Source: Microvirga sp. (GTDB lineage: Bacteria; Pseudomonadota; Alphaproteobacteria; Rhizobiales; Beijerinckiaceae). Taken from it: 64,000 nucleotides of DNA. Under the pieces are notes generated by a model. The model was not told the origin of the DNA. It was given only the letters and a program-made list of their open reading frames with translations, and did not search any database. The first letter of the stretch is position 1. The number at the start of each line of letters is the position of its first letter. Shown here one piece after another: positions 18,320 to 47,233 of the stretch. Both the position numbers and the translations under genes were made by a program. The stretch covers positions 21,611 through 85,610 of the forward strand of contig JAPSLB010000012.1 in the NCBI GenBank assembly GCA_031181145.1, in the 5' to 3' direction.

Positions 18320-18354
18320 CAGGCTAGCCATAGAGCAATGCCGTCTCCATCGAA

Positions 18355-18376
18355 GTCAGGCTAACGTTAGCCTGAC
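18355..18376. repeat. Perfect 22-bp palindrome between convergent genes
   Basis: GTCAGGCTAACGTTAGCCTGAC is its own reverse complement. Confidence 0.8.
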
Positions 18377-18574
18377 CTCGCCGCGTCAATCGGTTCATGA
18401 CGCCTGATGTCCGATGTGGGTCAGGTAGTGTGACTCCCCGCCCGTATGGAATGTCTGCCTATGCAAGGATTGCTGCCATTGGGCTCGTGTCTCAGGTGTG
18501 CCAGAAGCCGGCGTTTCTCGTTGTCATCCATTACGCAGTGAGCCGCCGTGAGGCTTCACGGCGGCTCAACCGCG

Positions 18575-32735: not shown

Positions 32736-33362
32736 TCATGACCGCTGGCCATAATGCCCTTCGCGAAGGGGTCTCGACCAAATCCTCGTATTCCAAGATG
32801 CTCTGGGCCCGCTTCCCGGCGCGGCCGGATCCCGCATTAGTGTCCCTACGCCCTTCCCAACCTCATCACCGAACTCCCTCAGCGATGATTCTGCCACCTG
32901 CACGGCAGGCTCACGATAGCGCTCGCCCTTGGCCATGAACGCCCACACCATGCGAGCCACCTTGTTGGCCAGAGCCACCGCCGCCACTTTGGTGGCCCGC
33001 CGTGCCAGCAACTGCACGAGCCACGGTCGCCGGGTACCATGCCGCTGGGCATAGCGGATCACCGCCTCGCAGATCGCCTCGGCATCGGTCATGTCGTTCT
33101 TCTGCCGCTTCATGTAAGGTTTGACGTTGGCGGGTGGCATGAGCTTCACCTGGTGGCTCAGGCTCTGGAGTTCGCGCGACCCGTGACGAGCCGAGGCACA
33201 GGCCCCGATGCCGATCAGACAGGATGGCAGGCTGGCAAAGAACTTCAGCACCTGCCCTCGCCTGACCTGGCGCCGGGTTAGCACCTCGCCCGTGGCGCTG
33301 ATGCCGTGCGCCTGGAAGACGGACTTGGCGATATCCAAACCATTGATGGTGACCGGGCTCAT
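32736..33362 (-). mobile_element. IS110-family transposase, internally deleted
   Basis: VTINGLDIAKSVFQAHGISATGEVLTRRQVRRGQVLKFFASLP...VKLMPPANVKPYMKRQKNDMTDAEAICEAVIRY then directly RRPWLVQLLARRATKVAAVALANKVARMVWAFMAKGERY; central region missing. Confidence 0.88.
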
Positions 33363-33507
33363 GGGCTGCTCCTGTGTCGCTGGCTGCTGACAACAGCCAT
33401 GCTACCTCACCGCTCGGTGGGAGCCGTCCAAAGTATCATTTCAAGACCTTTGGGAGTTCGCCGCGTCCTAGCCTAAAGCGGCATTCGGTAGCAAAGACTG
33501 CCAAATG

Positions 33508-35353: not shown

Positions 35354-35700
35354 TCAGGTCCCAATCAGAGCCGCCTTACTGGCCAGCGCACCCGTACCGG
35401 CAGCGGCGGCATCGGTCTTCTGGCGCTTGACGCAAGGCTTCACGTCAGCCGGCGGGATCAGCCGAACCTGATGACCAGACCCGGAAATCTCACGCGCCCG
35501 GTGATGAGAATTGCCGCAGGCCTCCATCGCCACCGTGCAGGGCGGTTGGCCGGCATGGAACGCGAGCACCTGGTGCCGCCGCAGCTTCCGGCGGAACAGG
35601 ACCGCTCCGGACGCAGCGGCGCCGTGAACCTGGAACACGTTCTGCGCCAGCCTCGCCCATGGACGCCTCCCTCGAGTGGCGCTCAACACCTCCCCCGCGG
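35354..35700 (-). mobile_element. IS110-family transposase N-terminal remnant
   Basis: NVFQVHGAAASGAVLFRRKLRRHQVLAFHAGQPPCTVAMEACGNSHHRAREISGSGHQVRLIPPADVKPCVKRQKTD. Confidence 0.75.
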
Positions 35701-35862
35701 CACTCGAAGGCCGTTGCGGCGCGTCCACCCCATGAGAACCATCCGCTTCCCCACTTCCGCCATCTCTGATGTGAAGTATGGGATTGTGGGATGCTTCGCG
35801 GTTGAAGAGAAGCGTCATCAAGGCCAACAGCCGCAAAGCCAAGGAAAGCTGGAGCCGAGCCC

Positions 35863-37348: not shown

Positions 37349-38161
37349 CTATCGCAGGAAAAGGTCCCTAGCCTCTTTTGGTGTCGCGACGCCCAGCCCT
37401 AGAGATCTGGCAGCATCCGCAACGCCGCGAACCAGAGCGGCATTGTCCGGAGCCAAACTCCCGTCCGGCAGATGAAGGTTGTTTTCGAACCCGACCCGAA
37501 CATGGCCGCCGAGGCAGGCTGCAGTGACGGCGCAAGCCGCTTCGCGACGGCCGAACGCACATAGTGACCAAGGCAGATCAAGGTTCCAGGCGTTCAGGAA
37601 TGACAGCAGATCATTCGGCGATGACTGCTGCCCCTGCGCATAGCGTCCGAGAACGAACAAGACACTTGCCCTGGTGCGGGGAATGACCGCACGATCCAGC
37701 AGATCCCCGAACCGCCGCACGTCACCCTCATCATAGAGAATGTGCTGAACGAACGCTCCGCGATCAGCCTGCTCCTTTAGGAACCGGGTGGCCACTGTCT
37801 CGGATGCCGCGTCGGGAATGAGTTCGCGCACTGCGACAGAGAAGGCTTCGGGCTGAAGCCCTTGCATCGCTGCGATCTGCTGGGCGGGCGTGTAGAGGCC
37901 GACGGCCTCGGTAGTGACCTGAACGATCAGATCGGAACCGGCTTCCTGCCGAACTGCTGCAATGGCAGCCCGATACAGGTCGGGGTCGAGCGAGTGCCGC
38001 CCTTCCGCATCACGGACATGCAGATGGATCATGGCAGCCCCTGCCTCCTGGCAGCGGGCCGCGTCAAGGCCGATCTCCTCCGGCGTGAGCGGAACGGCAG
38101 GATGGTCGGCCTTTCCACGGCGCGCGCCATTGGGAGCGACCGTGATGATCAGAGGGTTCAT
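37349..38161 (-). CDS. BKACE (beta-keto acid cleavage enzyme, DUF849) family protein
   Basis: MNPLIITVAPNGARRGKADHPAVPLTPEEIGLDAARCQEAGAAMIHLHVRDAEGRHSLDPDLYRAAIAAVR; GGHVRVGFENNLHLPDG. Confidence 0.94.
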   Translation of the reverse strand: MNPLIITVAPNGARRGKADHPAVPLTPEEIGLDAARCQEAGAAMIHLHVRDAEGRHSLDPDLYRAAIAAVRQEAGSDLIVQVTTEAVGLYTPAQQIAAMQGLQPEAFSVAVRELIPDAASETVATRFLKEQADRGAFVQHILYDEGDVRRFGDLLDRAVIPRTRASVLFVLGRYAQGQQSSPNDLLSFLNAWNLDLPWSLCAFGRREAACAVTAACLGGHVRVGFENNLHLPDGSLAPDNAALVRGVADAARSLGLGVATPKEARDLFLR

Positions 38162-39084
38162 TATGGCTCCCCAGCGACCTCTGTCCGCGACTTGAGGATG
38201 TGAAGAAGAGCTCTGTCCCTTCGCTCCTCTAACTCCTGAATTGTGCGGTCTCCAGCTTCTTCAGCAACGCCTTCCACGATCCGCTTCTGCACCTCCGGGC
38301 CCAACGTCGGGTTTCCGAGAGAGGCCCAGCGTCTGACTTGACTCGGTCCCAGATGAGCGAGGTAGTGCTCAATGCCACCCGGGCCGCCGCCGAGATGATA
38401 GGTCATGTGCGCCCCCATCACGGCCCAGCGCAGACCTGGGCCGTTGCAGAGGGCAGCGTCGATATCAGCAACGCTCGCCACACCCTGTTCCACAAGGTAG
38501 ACCGCCTCTCGATAGAGGGCGGACGAGAGCCGGTTCGCGATGTGGCCCGGCATCTCACGATTAAGGATAACGGGTCGGCGCCCGAGTGTCCGATAAAACC
38601 TGGCGGCTTGCTGAACGATGCCTCCGTCCTCTCCAACAATTTCAACAAGCGGGACAAGGTGCGGCGGATTGAAAGGATGGGCCAGAATGTGGCGCCTTTT
38701 GTGGTGGCACTCCCCAATCAGGCGACTGCGCAGAAGGGACGAGGTACTGCCGGCAACGATGACCTCGGGTGGTACTAACCGGTCGATTTCGGCAAGCAGG
38801 CGGCGCTTCAGTTCTTCGGACTCCGGTGCATTTTCCTGAACGAACTCTACCCCATCCAGGGCAGTGGCCAGATCAGTGGAGAAACTGACGGCGCCGCGTC
38901 CAGTCCACCCGAGTTCTGCTAGTTGCGGCAGCGCTCGGCCCAGGAACTGCTGCAATCTCTCCTCGGCATCCGCAGACGGGTCCGTCGCACGAACATCAAG
39001 CCCATGGGCGATGAACAGCGCCGCCCAACTGGCGCCAACCGTGCCGCACCCGACGACGCCGACGGTCCGTGGCTTGACTATCAT
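38161..39084 (-). CDS. 3-hydroxyacyl-CoA dehydrogenase / L-carnitine dehydrogenase-like protein
   Basis: VGVVGCGTVGASWAALFIAHGLDVRATDPSADAEERL; PHLVPLVEIVGEDGG; MPGHIANRLSSALYREAVYLVEQGVASVADIDAAL. Confidence 0.92.
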   Translation of the reverse strand: MIVKPRTVGVVGCGTVGASWAALFIAHGLDVRATDPSADAEERLQQFLGRALPQLAELGWTGRGAVSFSTDLATALDGVEFVQENAPESEELKRRLLAEIDRLVPPEVIVAGSTSSLLRSRLIGECHHKRRHILAHPFNPPHLVPLVEIVGEDGGIVQQAARFYRTLGRRPVILNREMPGHIANRLSSALYREAVYLVEQGVASVADIDAALCNGPGLRWAVMGAHMTYHLGGGPGGIEHYLAHLGPSQVRRWASLGNPTLGPEVQKRIVEGVAEEAGDRTIQELEERRDRALLHILKSRTEVAGEP

Positions 39085-39100
39085 CTTAATCTCCTCATCG

Positions 39101-40984
39101 TCAGGCGCCTGTTACCGCCATCTCAGGTTCCGGCACCCTGATGCGATGCCGCCGCATCAGCCACAGCAGGACGAAGGCCAGGGTCGCAACCCCAAGCCCG
39201 TACCAGGTCGGGAACACGGACAGGACGGCGATCGCCAGCAGGACGGCTGCGTTGAGCACGCGGGACGCAAAGAACTGCGCGCCGCCGAAGAACAGCGCGA
39301 ATGCCATCGTGAAAACCACTCCCGAGACGACGGCCTCGGCAATGTCGAACCATGTGCCGGAGGCAAGCATGCCCGGATAGGCTAGGAACATGAAGGGGAT
39401 CACGTAGGTCACCGCACCCAGCTTGCAGGCCTCGCGGGCGACCGCCGTCCAACTGGTCTGGGCGATCCCCGCAGCCACGAACACGGCGACACAGACGGGC
39501 GGAGTGATGACCGAGATGGTCGCGTAGTAGAAGACGAACATGTGCGCAACGATCGGCTCGATGCCGACCTTGATCAGTGCAGGAGCCAGCACGGCGGCGA
39601 CCAAGACGTAGGCCGCCGTGGTCGGTATGCCCATACCCAACACCATGCAGACCAGGGCCGTCACGAGCGCGATCAGCCAGATCGAATCCGCTGCAAGGCT
39701 GACGATCAGCGAGGAAAGCGTCACGCCGAGGCCCGTCAGGTTGACCATGCTCACCAAGATCTGGGCAGCCGCCAGCAATACACCGATCATCACGAGAGCC
39801 CGGCCCGCGTCCTCCAGGCTATTGACGATCAAGCGGATCGCCTTCCGAAGGTCGGGCAGGGACCGGACGTTCAGCAGGAGGTAGGAGGCGAAGAGGCCGG
39901 TCACGCCCAAGAAGGCGGCGGATTGCACCGAGCGTCCCGTCAGGAGGCCGTACAGGAGCGCCGCGAAGGCGGCGATAATCGGGCCGATCCGACGCGGGGC
40001 AAGGACGCTGGACCAGGGCGGCATCTCGGACTCGGGAACGATCCTCAGCCCCCGGTTCAGCGCGATGAAGTGGATCGTCGCGAAACATCCGAGATAGTAG
40101 AGGAACGCCGGCAGCAGGGCAGCCTTGGCCAGATCGAAGTAGCTGCGCCCGATGATCTCCGCCATGACGAAGGCGGCCGCACCCATGACGGGAGGAGCGA
40201 TCTGTCCGCCCGTTGAGGCCACTGCCTCGATCCCGCCCGCCAGCGCGGGCGAATATCCCAACCGCTTCATCAGCGGGATCGTGAAGTTCCCGGTCGTCGC
40301 AACGTTCGCGACTGCGCTGCCGCTGATGGTGCCGAAGAGGCCCGATGCGACGGTGCCGATCTTCGCGGCACCGCCGGGGCTGCGCCCGCTCAGGCGGATG
40401 GCGAGGTCCATAAAGGTCTGCCCGCCGCCGGTGAAGAGGAGGACGCTGCCGAATAGGATGAATGCCCCGATGGTGGTGCTGGCCACGCCAACGAGCAGCC
40501 CCCAGATACCCAGGTCACCGAGAAGCAGCGTCTCCGTCACGAAGTCGACGTCGAATCCCCTGTGGCCGAGCGTTCCCGGGATGTACTGGCCGAGCAGGGC
40601 GTAAGCGATGCCAGAAAGGGTGATCACCGGGAAAATGCCGCCGATGGCCCGGCGGGACACCTCCAGGATCGTCAGGACGATGCCCACCGTGAGCGCAATG
40701 TCCGCGTAGGTCGCCGTCGGGAGTCCGTTCATGATCTCGTCGTAGTTGACGATGACGTAGGAGCAGGCCCCGATGGAGACGGCGGCAAGCCCCAGGTCGG
40801 CGAGGATTCCCGCTGGACGCCAGCGCTTGCCGGCGCCCAGCGGGAACATGAGAAGGCCGAGGCATATCACCAGGGCCAAGAAGATCGCCCTTTGGATCAG
40901 TCCCTCGAACGATCCAAAGGCGGATGTGTAGAGTATGAAGACGCCCAGGAGGACGGCCATTCCCTTTGTCAGTCCGGCTTGCAC
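39101..40984 (-). CDS. TRAP transporter fused (4TM/12TM) permease
   Basis: 627 aa polytopic protein; SVLLFTGGGQTFMDLAIRLSGRSPGGAAKIGTVASGLFGTISGSAVANVATTGNFTIPLMKR, GMGIPTTAAYVLVAAVLAPALI. Confidence 0.94.
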   Translation of the reverse strand: MQAGLTKGMAVLLGVFILYTSAFGSFEGLIQRAIFLALVICLGLLMFPLGAGKRWRPAGILADLGLAAVSIGACSYVIVNYDEIMNGLPTATYADIALTVGIVLTILEVSRRAIGGIFPVITLSGIAYALLGQYIPGTLGHRGFDVDFVTETLLLGDLGIWGLLVGVASTTIGAFILFGSVLLFTGGGQTFMDLAIRLSGRSPGGAAKIGTVASGLFGTISGSAVANVATTGNFTIPLMKRLGYSPALAGGIEAVASTGGQIAPPVMGAAAFVMAEIIGRSYFDLAKAALLPAFLYYLGCFATIHFIALNRGLRIVPESEMPPWSSVLAPRRIGPIIAAFAALLYGLLTGRSVQSAAFLGVTGLFASYLLLNVRSLPDLRKAIRLIVNSLEDAGRALVMIGVLLAAAQILVSMVNLTGLGVTLSSLIVSLAADSIWLIALVTALVCMVLGMGIPTTAAYVLVAAVLAPALIKVGIEPIVAHMFVFYYATISVITPPVCVAVFVAAGIAQTSWTAVAREACKLGAVTYVIPFMFLAYPGMLASGTWFDIAEAVVSGVVFTMAFALFFGGAQFFASRVLNAAVLLAIAVLSVFPTWYGLGVATLAFVLLWLMRRHRIRVPEPEMAVTGA

Positions 40985-41011
40985 GCTGCGACCCTCCCGC
41001 CCACGAGTTCC

Positions 41012-41980
41012 TTAGGACGACTTCGGCATCAGATTTGCCGGGATCTCGACGTTCTTCTCCTTGAGGTAGCGAACGACGCCTGGGTGGAGAGGAACCGTCC
41101 CGTTCTCGAGCGTCAGCTTGATCATGTCGGCTCCCTTGAGGCTGTCGAGCGCCGCGGCCTGGACCGTCTGGTCCTCGAAGACGGCCTTCGCGATCTGGTA
41201 TGCGACCTCGTCCGACATTCCGGGACGGGCATGCACGGCCAGACCGAAGCTCCAGGTGCTGTAGGCGGGCACGCCGTCGGCGGCGCCAGCCGGGATGTTG
41301 ACAACGGAGAGATCCGGAAACTTATCGGCGACGACCTTCTGCTGCTCGGGCGTCAGCGACAGGACGCGGACCGGCGTGAGGGTGGCGATGTCGAGGGAGG
41401 ATCCATCCAGCTTGTCGCCCACGCCGGACTTGACGTAACCGATGACGCGATTGTCCTTGATCGAATCGACGATGTCCGTCGTCGAGCCGCGGACATACTC
41501 AGGCGAGACATCGAGGGCCTTAAAGACCGCCTCTGCCGTCTTCTCCGTCGCCGAACCCTTCAACCCGGGATTAAAGCGCTTTCCTTTCAAGTCAGCTAGT
41601 GATGTGACGCCGCTGTCGGCGCGCACGATCACGTTCTGCGGTGCGGGCGAGTAGACGAAGAGCAGGCGGCTGTCGACCTTTCTACCTTCGAACTCGCCCT
41701 CCCCGGCAAAGGCTTGGTAGCCGACGTTCGTCGTGACGAGGCCGAGATCGATCTGATTGCGGCCAATGCGCCGGAGGTTGTCGACGGTCGCGCCCGTCTC
41801 GACGACCGAGCTTTCGACTTTGGGAACCTTGCCGTTGATCAACTGCGACAGGGCGACGAAGTAGCCGTATTGGCTCGACGATGCCGAGGAGGCGCCGATC
41901 AGAAGCTTCTCCTGAGCCACGACCGGCGTCGACACTGCGACGACACAGGCGGCAAGCGCCACGATCCAACTGCGGTTCAT
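41012..41980 (-). CDS. TAXI-family TRAP transporter solute-binding protein
   Basis: MNRSWIVALAACVVAVSTPVVAQEKLLIGASSASSSQYGYFVALSQLINGKVPKVESSVVETGATVDNLRRIGRNQIDLGLVTTNVGYQAFAG. Confidence 0.93.
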   Translation of the reverse strand: MNRSWIVALAACVVAVSTPVVAQEKLLIGASSASSSQYGYFVALSQLINGKVPKVESSVVETGATVDNLRRIGRNQIDLGLVTTNVGYQAFAGEGEFEGRKVDSRLLFVYSPAPQNVIVRADSGVTSLADLKGKRFNPGLKGSATEKTAEAVFKALDVSPEYVRGSTTDIVDSIKDNRVIGYVKSGVGDKLDGSSLDIATLTPVRVLSLTPEQQKVVADKFPDLSVVNIPAGAADGVPAYSTWSFGLAVHARPGMSDEVAYQIAKAVFEDQTVQAAALDSLKGADMIKLTLENGTVPLHPGVVRYLKEKNVEIPANLMPKSS

Positions 41981-42345
41981 GCTGTTATTTCCTCCCTTAA
42001 TTGTAGGATTGTCTCCGGGACCCATACGGGTATCGACAGGACAAGGAATGCGTTTGTCTTGCCGTGTCCATCAAGGTTCAGCGCATCGTTGACGCCGCCC
42101 TCGAGAACATCATCGATCACGAAGTTGAGCGCCCCCAGCCGGGGCAGCTCGTACCGCTCGACCTTTGTCGGCCGACGGTGGCTGAACAGTTCGGCGACAC
42201 GCTCGGCGGTCACTTGCTCCCGGATGACCGGGAAGAACTCGGCGCGGTAGGCGATGACGCTGATGTTGATGCGGTTTCCCTTGTCACCGGTCCGGCCATG
42301 GGCGAGGCGATGCAGAGGAGTTTCGATGAGGCGGGACATGTCCAT
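41977..42345 (-). CDS. AtuA-associated C-terminal-domain protein
   Basis: MDMSRLIETPLHRLAHGRTGDKGNRINISVIAYRAEFFPVIREQVTAERVAELFSHRRPTKVERYELPRLGALNFVIDDVLEGGVNDALNLDGHGKTNAFLVL. Confidence 0.85.
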   Translation of the reverse strand: MDMSRLIETPLHRLAHGRTGDKGNRINISVIAYRAEFFPVIREQVTAERVAELFSHRRPTKVERYELPRLGALNFVIDDVLEGGVNDALNLDGHGKTNAFLVLSIPVWVPETILQLREEITA

Positions 42346-42353
42346 TATGGCAC

Positions 42354-43712
42354 TCAATCCATCATTTCCACGTTCGGCTTCACGAGCTCGCGCTGGATGT
42401 AGCCCGAGGCGGTTGCAATCCGCCTGCGCACCGCGCTTCTCACCCCGCCTCCTCCGGCAGGTCCGCATGTGTAGAGGGCAAGAACCTCCTCACCAGCGCG
42501 CTCCGCTGTCCGGCGGTCCGGCGCGGCTACGGCAATGCGCATACGGACATCGCCGGAGTGAGCGAAGTAACCGTCGAGCCACGCCCCTGCATCATCGTTG
42601 AACACGCTCGCCACGCCGATGATGTCGCCGCGAACTCTCACGTTAGGACCAACGTGCCCGATACGCCGCTGCACGACGTCCATGGCGAGCCTCGCCCGTT
42701 CGGCGGCATTGGGGCCTGCATACGAGATCTCGCCCTCGCCCAGCCAGCCGCCATCGTATCCGACGGTCACCTTCAGACGGTCAGGCCGCTGGTGGCCTGC
42801 AGCACCCGTGACCGAGACCTGGTTAGGAGCGATGCCCGCCACCTCCACCTCTGTCACGTCGAGCGTGATATCGGGCGTGAGGTAGCGTGCGGGATCGTGG
42901 ATCTCGTACAGCATCTGCTCGATCACCGTGCGCCGATCCACCAAGCCACCGGTGTCGTGGGCCTTCATAACGGTGAAGCGGCCGTCCGCCTCCATCGAGA
43001 CGATGGGAAATCCGATCATGTGCGGGTCGGGCACATTCTTGAATCCGGGATCGGCGAAGTAGCCGCCGGTCACTTGGGCGCCGCACTCCAGGAGATGCCC
43101 GGCAAGGGTTCCGGAAGCGATGAGTCGATGCTCATCAAGCGACCAACCGTGATGATGGATGAAGGGTGCAAGGGCCAAGGACGGATCCGCCACTCGCCCG
43201 GTGACGACGACGTCTGCTCCGGCGACGAGGGCCTCCACGAGCGGGGCGGCCCCCACATACGCATTGGCGGAGATGAACTCGCCTCTTGGGAAGGGGGCTC
43301 CGTCCTCCTGCTCCAGAGCCGATACTGCTCCACTCGCGATCAGGTCGTCTCCCGTGACCACGGCGATACGCATCTTGCGGCAGCCTAGCCGGCGTCCCAA
43401 CGCATGAATTGTCCGTGCAGCCGCATGAGGATTGGCGGCGCCGAAATTCCCGAGAATGCGAATATTGTAGGTAAGGCAGGCATCGAGAACTGGTTCGAGC
43501 ATTCGCTCGAGCAACGGCTCAAACCCGTTTTCGGGATTCTGCTGGCGGGCCAATTGAGCGAGAGCCAGCGTCCGCTCGCCCAAGGTCTCGAACATGATGG
43601 CGGCCGGTCTCCCGGAGCGGATCAGCGTACGGACGACGGGCTCAGGAGCGTCCAGGCGATCTCCCGAGAAACCTGCGCCACAGCCGACGAGAATCGGAGC
43701 GTTATCGCCCAT
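42354..43712 (-). CDS. Acyclic terpene utilisation AtuA-family protein
   Basis: MGDNAPILVGCGAGFSGDRLDAPEPVVRTLIRSGRPAAIMFETLGERTLALAQLARQQNPENGFEPLLERML. Confidence 0.9.
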   Translation of the reverse strand: MGDNAPILVGCGAGFSGDRLDAPEPVVRTLIRSGRPAAIMFETLGERTLALAQLARQQNPENGFEPLLERMLEPVLDACLTYNIRILGNFGAANPHAAARTIHALGRRLGCRKMRIAVVTGDDLIASGAVSALEQEDGAPFPRGEFISANAYVGAAPLVEALVAGADVVVTGRVADPSLALAPFIHHHGWSLDEHRLIASGTLAGHLLECGAQVTGGYFADPGFKNVPDPHMIGFPIVSMEADGRFTVMKAHDTGGLVDRRTVIEQMLYEIHDPARYLTPDITLDVTEVEVAGIAPNQVSVTGAAGHQRPDRLKVTVGYDGGWLGEGEISYAGPNAAERARLAMDVVQRRIGHVGPNVRVRGDIIGVASVFNDDAGAWLDGYFAHSGDVRMRIAVAAPDRRTAERAGEEVLALYTCGPAGGGGVRSAVRRRIATASGYIQRELVKPNVEMMD

Positions 43713-43791: not shown

Positions 43792-43826
43792 TGACAAATC
43801 GATTTATCGGATCAATCTATTTGTCA
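43792..43826. promoter_or_regulatory. Inverted repeat operator between the AtuA operon and the divergent LysR gene
   Basis: TGACAAATCGATT (43792-43804) and AATCTATTTGTCA (43814-43826): 12/13 complementary arms, 9-nt spacer, reaching the LysR start codon. Confidence 0.65.
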
Positions 43827-44725
43827 TGGTTATGGATCTCAGCATCCGGCAGCTCCGCGCCTTTCGCGCCGTTGCCGAAGTCGGCAGCTTCAGTGAGGCT
43901 GCGGTACGCCTGCATCTGTCCCAGCCAGCCTTGAGCGCCACAATCCAAAAGCTTGAGGATGCTGTACAGGCGCGCCTGTTCGACCGCACGACACGGCAGG
44001 TTCTCCTGACCCCCGAGGGTGAGGAACTGTTTCGGCTCTCAAGTCGCCTCGTCGACGAGTTCGAGGCCGTGACGGACAACCTCCAAGATTACCTGGAGCG
44101 CCGCCGCGGCCGCATCGTCGTGGCTGCCCTTCCGTCGCTAGCCGCCGTGACGCTGCCTCCTGCCCTCGCCCGCCTCAAATCGCAGCACCCGGGAATCGAC
44201 ATCCTCGTCCGAGACACCTTGCATGGAGAGATCCTGGATCTGGTTGAGAGCGGGATCGCGGACTTTGGACTGACGGTCCCCCCTTCGACCAGCAAGAGGC
44301 TCGACTTCGAGCCGCTGATCGTCGACCGTTTCGTCATGGTATGCGCGCGCAATCACCCCCTGGCGTCCCATGAGTGGGTAACGTGGAGCCAGATGGTGCA
44401 ATACCCGATCATCACGATGGCGAAGACGTCGAGCGTGCGCCAATACATTGACGCAGCCTGCGCCCAGGCGTGCATCGAATCGTCCAGCCAGTACGACGCC
44501 GAGCACCTCGCAACGGTCGGTGCCCTGGTCAAGGAAGGACTGGGTATCGCGGCCCTGCCTTCTCTGTCGATGCCGCTTTTGCAGTTTGCCGATCTGGCCG
44601 AAATTCCAATCACGGCACCCGAAGTCCAGCGGACCATGGGGATCATAAAGCGGACAGGGCGTTCACCTTCAGTTGCAGCCAGGGCGCTGATCGACCTGTT
44701 GACCGCAATACATCTTCCCGGCTGA
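43826..44725 (+). CDS. LysR-family transcriptional regulator
   Basis: MDLSIRQLRAFRAVAEVGSFSEAAVRLHLSQPALSATIQKLEDAVQARLFDRTTRQVLLTPEGEELFRLSSRL; start could also be 43832. Confidence 0.95.
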   Translation: MVMDLSIRQLRAFRAVAEVGSFSEAAVRLHLSQPALSATIQKLEDAVQARLFDRTTRQVLLTPEGEELFRLSSRLVDEFEAVTDNLQDYLERRRGRIVVAALPSLAAVTLPPALARLKSQHPGIDILVRDTLHGEILDLVESGIADFGLTVPPSTSKRLDFEPLIVDRFVMVCARNHPLASHEWVTWSQMVQYPIITMAKTSSVRQYIDAACAQACIESSSQYDAEHLATVGALVKEGLGIAALPSLSMPLLQFADLAEIPITAPEVQRTMGIIKRTGRSPSVAARALIDLLTAIHLPG

Positions 44726-46027: not shown

Positions 46028-47233
46028 ATGTGTATGAGCGATTGGACCGATTGTGTGATTTCGTCAGAAGCGAGCCGAGAGGGCTTCGCGAGTTTGGGGA
46101 TCCCGGTTTATCGAGCCTCCACCATCCCTTTCCCTGACGCCAAGAGCTACCAGACCCGCCACGAGCGTGGGGACGATGGGTATAGCTACGGCTTGTCGGG
46201 AACACCGACCTCTCGCTCGCTCGCGCAAAAGATTACCGCTCTTCAGCAAGGCCTAAGGACGTTTCTGGTCCCGTCGGGACAGGCCGCGATCACGGTTGCC
46301 ATTCTGTCGTTCGTGCAGGCCGGAGATCGTATTCTGATCGCCGATACGGTCTACCCGCCGCTGCGCGACTTTGCAGAGCGTGATCTCCGACGCCTTGGGG
46401 TCGATATCGCATTCTACGATCCTATGGCTCCTGACGAGCTAGAGCACATCATATGCGGTAAGACCCGGCTGATCTGGGCCGAGTCGCCAGGCTCCACGAC
46501 GATGGAGGTTCAGGACATGGCTCGCCTTGCCGACATCGCCCATCGGCATGGTGCCCTACTGGCGTGTGACAACACATGGGCAACCCCGTTGTATTTCAAG
46601 CCGCTTGCTCACGGTGCCGACATCGTCGTAGAAGCCCTGACAAAGTATTTTTCTGGTCACTCCGATGTCCTGATGGGGGCAATTACGGTTCGCGATCAGA
46701 CCGCAGCTGCGGCCATCAAGGGAAAACTCAGCCGTCTCGGCATTGGAGTATCGCCTGATGATTGCTCACTGGTCCTGCGTGGAATGGAGACTATGCCCAT
46801 CCGTCTCCAATACTCGTCCGAGGTCACGAAGCGCTTGCTTTCCTCGATCGCCGAGCAACCAACCGTGGATCGAATTCTCTACCCTGCTTTGAGCACATGT
46901 CCGGGCCACGAAATCTGGAAACGCGACTTCAAGGGTGCAAGCAGTGTTTTCGGGATCGTCTTCACGCCCGATGCAACACCGCACGTCTTCGCGGCGCTCG
47001 ATGAATTCAGGGTATTCGTCATCGGGGCATCGTGGGGTGGGACGCGGAGCCTGGTCGCTCCGATGCCTGTCAAGGCGAACCGCACCGCAAAGCCCTGGGA
47101 GGGAGAGGACCTCGTCCTGCGTGTCAGCATCGGCGTAGAATCGTTTGCCGATCTCCAGGACGACCTCGACCGGTTCTTCAATCACCTGAACCGGCACTCT
47201 GTAGCGGCCACTCTGGCTGCTCAGTCCACCTGA
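46028..47233 (+). CDS. Cys/Met metabolism PLP-dependent enzyme, cystathionine beta-lyase-like
   Basis: YGLSGTPTSRSLAQKITALQQGLRTFLVPSGQAAITVAILSFVQAGDRILIADTVY; ACDNTWATPLYFKPLAHGADIVVEALTKYFSGHSDVLMG. Confidence 0.93.
   Translation: MCMSDWTDCVISSEASREGFASLGIPVYRASTIPFPDAKSYQTRHERGDDGYSYGLSGTPTSRSLAQKITALQQGLRTFLVPSGQAAITVAILSFVQAGDRILIADTVYPPLRDFAERDLRRLGVDIAFYDPMAPDELEHIICGKTRLIWAESPGSTTMEVQDMARLADIAHRHGALLACDNTWATPLYFKPLAHGADIVVEALTKYFSGHSDVLMGAITVRDQTAAAAIKGKLSRLGIGVSPDDCSLVLRGMETMPIRLQYSSEVTKRLLSSIAEQPTVDRILYPALSTCPGHEIWKRDFKGASSVFGIVFTPDATPHVFAALDEFRVFVIGASWGGTRSLVAPMPVKANRTAKPWEGEDLVLRVSIGVESFADLQDDLDRFFNHLNRHSVAATLAAQST

Follow-up and report, generated by a model that had tools for sequence, protein, structure and literature searches.

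We analysed a 64,000-nucleotide stretch of the soil bacterium Microvirga sp. (hereafter the window; GenBank assembly GCA_031181145.1, contig JAPSLB010000012.1, positions 21,611 to 85,610), and focused on a candidate catabolic operon at positions 37349–43712. This operon combines an AtuA-family protein, a tripartite ATP-independent periplasmic (TRAP) transporter, a 3-hydroxyacid dehydrogenase (HAD) and a DUF849 protein related to the beta-keto acid cleavage enzymes (BKACEs). The segment contains exactly six genes, all on the minus strand, and its end coordinates match likely starts and stops: the AtuA start lies at 43712, preceded by GGAGGAG, and the DUF849 gene stops at 37349. From AtuA to the BKACE-like gene, the intergenic gaps are 8, -4, 27, 16 and -1 bp.

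The first two genes encode AtuA (42354–43712; PF07287, 440 bits) and AtuA_C, also called the AtuA_ferredoxin domain (41977–42345; PF23544, 118 bits), which we propose to be the large and the small subunit of one acetate-releasing lyase. They are followed by a TAXI-family solute-binding protein (41012–41980; TIGR02122, 169.5 bits at a cut-off of 84; PF16868 NMT1_3, 166 bits) and a fused DctQM permease (39101–40984; TIGR02123, 512 bits at a cut-off of 321; PF06808 DctM, 275 bits). As both exceed the NCBIfam cut-offs (TRAP_TAXI, TRAP_fused), the transporter is of the TAXI-TRAP type. The last two genes encode the NAD-dependent HAD of the carnitine-dehydrogenase/lambda-crystallin type (38161–39084; PF02737 and PF00725 3HCDH, 127 and 49 bits) and the DUF849 protein, a Zn-dependent TIM-barrel enzyme by family (37349–38161; PF05853, 252 bits at a cut-off of 24.8). 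A LysR-family regulator diverges from the operon on the plus strand (43826–44725; PF00126 and PF03466), and its homologue is similarly placed in Skermanella and Loktanella. A near-perfect 35-bp palindrome at the LysR/AtuA intergenic boundary (43792–43826) is a candidate LysR operator; it is among the three strongest of the window, with comparable ones only at 18351–18380 and 18539–18568, and it has no counterpart in the other loci that we compared. Thus, the six tightly packed genes with a divergent LysR gene, as given in a preliminary description of this DNA, are borne out by coordinates, gaps and family matches.

The DUF849 protein belongs to the BKACE family by both profile and fold. Its structure model has a predicted local distance difference test (pLDDT) score of 96.8 and shares the fold of Kce, with template modelling scores of 0.83–0.87 to Kce and BKACE15. 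The protein is part of a well-bounded clade whose members are 44–87% identical to it, whereas other BKACEs reach at most 37% over the full length; in the tree, the branch that separates the clade from other BKACEs has a length of 1.75 and full support. To Kce, BKACE15 and 17 canonical homologues we aligned 110 clade members, 30 from one set and 80 from another, among which a few genes occur twice. His46, His48 and Glu230 (Kce numbering), which we take to be the Zn ligands in Kce, are kept in all 110 clade sequences, as is Arg226. In contrast, every clade sequence has Ile at the position of Glu143 of Kce (Glu171 in BKACE15), where the canonical homologues have Glu (16/17) or Asp (1/17). Asp231, next to the Zn-ligand Glu, is Asn throughout the clade, Glu141 is replaced by Gln in 109 and Gly110 by Arg in 105 of the 110 sequences. 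The register at Glu143 is anchored by a Tyr two residues on and by the ungapped stretch that follows it; this Tyr corresponds to Tyr145 of Kce and Tyr173 of BKACE15 (PMC12871164). In BKACE15, Glu171 is reported to be the catalytic base: Glu171Leu is inactive and Glu171Asp retains 5% of the activity (PMC11961710).

The clade thus shares fold, Zn ligands and Arg226 with Kce (PDB 2y7d) and with BKACE15 of Paracoccus (PDB 8rip), but differs from both at four positions, namely Ile for the base, Asn for Asp231, Gln for Glu141 and Arg for Gly110. As the known catalytic base is lost in the whole clade, the usual label of the type '3-keto-5-aminohexanoate cleavage protein' is probably wrong for this protein. 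Judging from the alignment, acetyl-CoA-dependent cleavage should not be assumed for the clade, and the BKACE mechanism as published would not be available to it. The family offers precedents for divergent chemistry in BsfD, where both Glu and Asp are retained, and in cis-epoxysuccinate hydrolase. These substitutions weigh on the reading in which a TRAP-imported 3-hydroxy acid is oxidised by the HAD and then split by a canonical BKACE with acetyl-CoA into acetoacetate and an acyl-CoA, with AtuA as an accessory. We regard this reading as unlikely: the kept Zn ligands and Arg, the shared Kce fold and the adjacency and co-inheritance of HAD and DUF849 genes in Microvirga speak for it, but base and Asp are replaced in 110/110 sequences, the Glu171Leu exchange abolished BKACE15 activity, and a TRAP and AtuA unit occurs without HAD or BKACE, so that AtuA is no accessory to them.

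To see which genes accompany the clade, we inspected 80 of its loci. A HAD is found nearby in 25 and a class III aminotransferase in 30 loci, both are never found together, and 25 loci have neither. If the two were independent, about nine of the 80 loci would be expected to contain both, a contrast that is inflated by relatedness among the loci. When the HAD or aminotransferase label is placed on the tree, three changes are needed, of which the well-supported branches force only one. The aminotransferase-type loci often also contain a MurR/RpiR regulator and a TAXI-TRAP transporter. Among the loci with neither partner, L055 and L067 have a gene of the 3-hydroxy-D-aspartate aldolase/D-serine dehydratase type immediately upstream of the clade gene; both copies belong to the same cluster (c79), in which the L055 copy is annotated. 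Since a keto-forming partner is present in 55 of the 80 loci, as either HAD or aminotransferase but never both, the clade probably acts on a keto acid that derives from a hydroxy or an amino acid. At position 14, where Kce has Glu, the aminotransferase and Microvirga groups carry Arg and the HAD group of betaproteobacteria carries Tyr; the Arg may point to a substrate with a negatively charged distal end in the first two. One aminotransferase-type locus, on Shinella plasmid pShin-01, includes a C45 peptidase, a P1 (possibly beta-aminopeptidase) peptidase and an amino-acid ATP-binding cassette importer, which hints at beta-amino acids.

The preliminary description invoked L-carnitine dehydrogenase-like enzymes as producers of beta-keto acids. 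By NCBIfam criteria, the HAD itself is not a carnitine dehydrogenase: it scores 251.3 bits against the L-carnitine dehydrogenase model NF005471, below the cut-off of 414. A pathway for L-carnitine or an analogue, with the HAD as carnitine dehydrogenase and the DUF849 protein cleaving dehydrocarnitine, would explain why the top NCBIfam models are carnitine dehydrogenases; all of these, however, stay under their curated cut-offs (251/414 and 233/592 bits), and we rejected carnitine degradation on this ground. Furthermore, Arg in place of Glu at position 14 would be unlikely for a trimethylammonium substrate, and the operon has no thioesterase or betaine genes, which leaves this pathway very improbable. 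The best PDB match of the HAD is lambda-crystallin (3ado), which is known as L-gulonate 3-dehydrogenase. A plausible substrate is a small 3-hydroxy or dicarboxylic acid, as homologues of the HAD adjoin malonyl-CoA genes and 3-oxoadipate genes in marine bacteria.

We next turn to the AtuA pair. In the window the two genes are neighbours 8 bp apart, and in all 48 loci examined AtuA and AtuA_C are co-located. They are direct neighbours in each of these except in Palleronia, where the solute-binding protein and TRAP genes lie between them. In addition, both domains occur in a single chain in all five long distant AtuA homologues scanned. Because of this co-location and fusion, we consider the two proteins to be parts of one enzyme. 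A profile built from 34 AtuA sequences matched one solved protein in the PDB (9erq/9evf, E=2.2e-7), named 'Acyclic terpene utilization AtuA family protein | Citramalate lyase, subunit A (cmlA)'. AtuA shares with CmlA the family name and, in the profile match, conserved GR-x-x-DPA and YE-x-x-DP stretches; it differs in being a remote relative, from an operon that here lacks citramalate or methylaspartate genes. The window AtuA sequence alone did not retrieve 9erq from the PDB, the AtuA_C profile had no match there, and no AtuA relatives were found in viral contigs. A single-sequence AlphaFold2 model of AtuA was not usable (mean pLDDT 40.6).

The family was formerly named DUF1446. In E. coli O157, DUF1446 adjoins methylaspartate ammonia-lyase in a mesaconate/citramalate pathway (PMC4682846), and a tentative assignment of AtuA as acetate lyase has been published (PMC4847356). 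Together with the name of 9erq, these placements point to a reaction in which a tertiary beta-hydroxy acid gives up free acetate, and AtuA/AtuA_C are most likely a single lyase that releases acetate. AtuA is thus less obscure biochemically than the preliminary description had it. Importers stand beside the pair in 25 of the 48 loci (TAXI-TRAP in 13, TctC in 12). Ester hydrolases also adjoin it (Abhydrolase_10 in five loci, carboxylesterase in two, tannase and 3-hydroxybutyrate-oligomer hydrolase in one each). These neighbours fit a scheme in which an ester would be hydrolysed and the acid imported and then split. On plasmid unnamed4 of Microvirga ossetica, for instance, AtuA, AtuA_C and TctC are followed by a 3-hydroxybutyrate oligomer hydrolase. 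On Salipiger abyssi pPABY7, TAXI-TRAP, AtuA and AtuA_C come directly after two CoA-transferases, MaoC proteins and a CoA-ester lyase, an arrangement that resembles an itaconate/citramalyl-CoA route and that we count in favour of AtuA being a lyase.

The AtuA of the terpenoid pathway has the same family name, and its length of 615 aa would fit an AtuA with a fused AtuA_ferredoxin domain. It is, however, accompanied there by AtuC, AtuF and AtuE, whereas the operon here has two separate genes next to a TRAP importer and lacks all three. Among the proteins scanned in and around the operon, we found no acyl-CoA ligase or carboxylase, in agreement with the preliminary description, and specifically no AtuC/AtuF carboxylase, AtuE hydratase or CoA ligase; terpenoid use is thus not indicated.

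When comparing the gene set across genomes, we find all seven families on plasmid pSM-1 of Skermanella mucosa (NZ_CP086107). As in the window, LysR diverges there from AtuA, AtuA_C, TAXI, TRAP and HAD genes, but the BKACE gene lies on the other side, beside LysR, and the cluster, itself uncharacterised, is 46–69% identical to that of the window (AtuA 63, AtuA_C 61, solute-binding protein 69, TRAP 65, HAD 58 and BKACE 54%). This is the one recurrence of the full set including DUF849 outside the window. Loktanella salsilacus has the same LysR/AtuA-AtuA_C-TAXI-TRAP-HAD order without BKACE. Since these two genomes repeat the set with and without BKACE, the cluster is no chance grouping. The TAXI-TRAP genes and the AtuA pair also occur without HAD or BKACE in eleven loci, including Thalassospira, Pseudosulfitobacter, Thioclava and Alloyangia. 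As this unit often stands without HAD or BKACE, the AtuA pair is most likely a main step tied to the transporter.

The HAD-BKACE pair has its nearest homologues in Microvirga, at 76–87% identity to the M. ossetica counterparts, where an IlvD/Edd dehydratase and TctC precede the pair instead; these homologies agree with a host that is a Microvirga or closely related to it. The GC content at third codon positions also differs along the operon, being 0.82–0.85 in the solute-binding protein and TRAP genes, 0.73 in AtuA and 0.66 in HAD and BKACE. Because of this difference between the TRAP and the HAD/DUF849 genes, and of the resemblance to the M. ossetica pair, the operon looks mosaic, with a mobile TRAP and AtuA unit joined to a resident Microvirga-type HAD-DUF849 pair. 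On one side of the operon, open reading frames on the minus strand (32736–33393 and 35354–35842) resemble, by their translations, decayed remnants of IS110-type transposases. Elsewhere, a cystathionine beta-lyase-like pyridoxal phosphate enzyme is encoded at 46028–47233; another LysR gene adjoins it, and an open reading frame for a solute-binding-like protein follows.

The order in M. ossetica (dehydratase, TctC, HAD, BKACE, with the dehydratase family confirmed) also raises the idea that AtuA/AtuA_C takes the place of IlvD/Edd in a sugar-acid-like pathway, as a dehydratase or some other enzyme than a lyase; the lambda-crystallin match of the HAD would suit such a pathway. We find this distinctly improbable: one AtuA-family protein carries the name citramalate lyase, and AtuA units elsewhere occur without further enzymes, which suits a lyase that yields central metabolites better. 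The mosaic pattern bears on a further possibility, namely that two independent pathways share one promoter, with TRAP and AtuA serving one acid and HAD and DUF849 another. Each half occurs alone elsewhere, and their third-position GC contents differ, but HAD is joined to TRAP and AtuA in three separate genomes (the window, Skermanella and Loktanella) and DUF849 in two, and the Skermanella DUF849 protein sits on a different branch of the tree from that of the window. We therefore rate two unconnected pathways as rather unlikely.

With even confidence, we propose a LysR-controlled catabolic operon of mosaic origin for one or a few small hydroxy-carboxylates, with an AtuA/AtuA_C acetate lyase, a HAD and a DUF849 enzyme that has no Glu base. 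In this proposal, TAXI-TRAP would import a small hydroxy acid. AtuA and AtuA_C, as one lyase that needs no CoA ligase, would act on a beta-hydroxy carboxylate, probably a tertiary one, such as a citramalate-like or 3-hydroxy-3-alkylglutarate-like acid, and split it into free acetate and a keto acid. The HAD would oxidise a 3-hydroxy acid to a 3-keto acid, on which the DUF849 enzyme would act through its Zn site and without the Glu base of canonical BKACEs. The earlier idea of import, oxidation and BKACE cleavage thus stands in part: import and oxidation feeding DUF849 are plausible given the keto-forming partners, whereas cleavage with CoA chemistry does not suit a clade that has lost base Glu and Asp. 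A comparable module is that of deoxyribonate oxidation (PMC6365646), where a DUF849 enzyme likewise receives its beta-keto acid from a dehydrogenase; there, however, a short-chain dehydrogenase/reductase, major facilitator superfamily transporters and a lactonase are used, whereas here it is HAD, TAXI-TRAP and AtuA. We found no literature that names AtuA together with BKACE. In the host assembly (4.56 Mb, 93 contigs, 89.6% complete), no acetoacetyl-CoA synthetase exceeds the cut-off, and the CoA-transferase subunit A model matches only two short stretches, one of them at a contig end; with the assembly incomplete, these results weigh neither way on acetoacetate activation in the host.

Several points weigh against our proposal. 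The AtuA match to 9erq is remote and confined mainly to two stretches, and the literature grades the acetate-lyase role of AtuA as tentative. The loss of the base Glu is read from an alignment, and another residue could replace it. Lastly, the full set including DUF849 is known from just two genomes, so the transporter may also bring in a second substrate, on which HAD and DUF849 act.

Of the new points, we regard as most solid that the base Glu is lost throughout the clade, that HAD and aminotransferase exclude each other, and that AtuA/AtuA_C are one enzyme with a citramalate-lyase relative. More broadly, though with somewhat less than even confidence, the DUF849 clade, which spans alpha-, beta- and gammaproteobacteria, may represent a new type of keto-acid C-C cleavage without a Glu base and perhaps without acetyl-CoA, fed by HAD or aminotransferase, and AtuA/AtuA_C may be a broad two-part acetate-lyase family coupled to organic-acid importers. 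Homology is the sole basis of many '3-keto-5-aminohexanoate cleavage protein' and 'AtuA family protein' labels. The locus described here singles out a clearly delimited clade of the BKACE family in which the published mechanism behind the label cannot hold, and whose partners limit the possible substrate. As AtuA and its small partner are linked to specific importers and ester hydrolases, their substrates can be sought through the binding protein.

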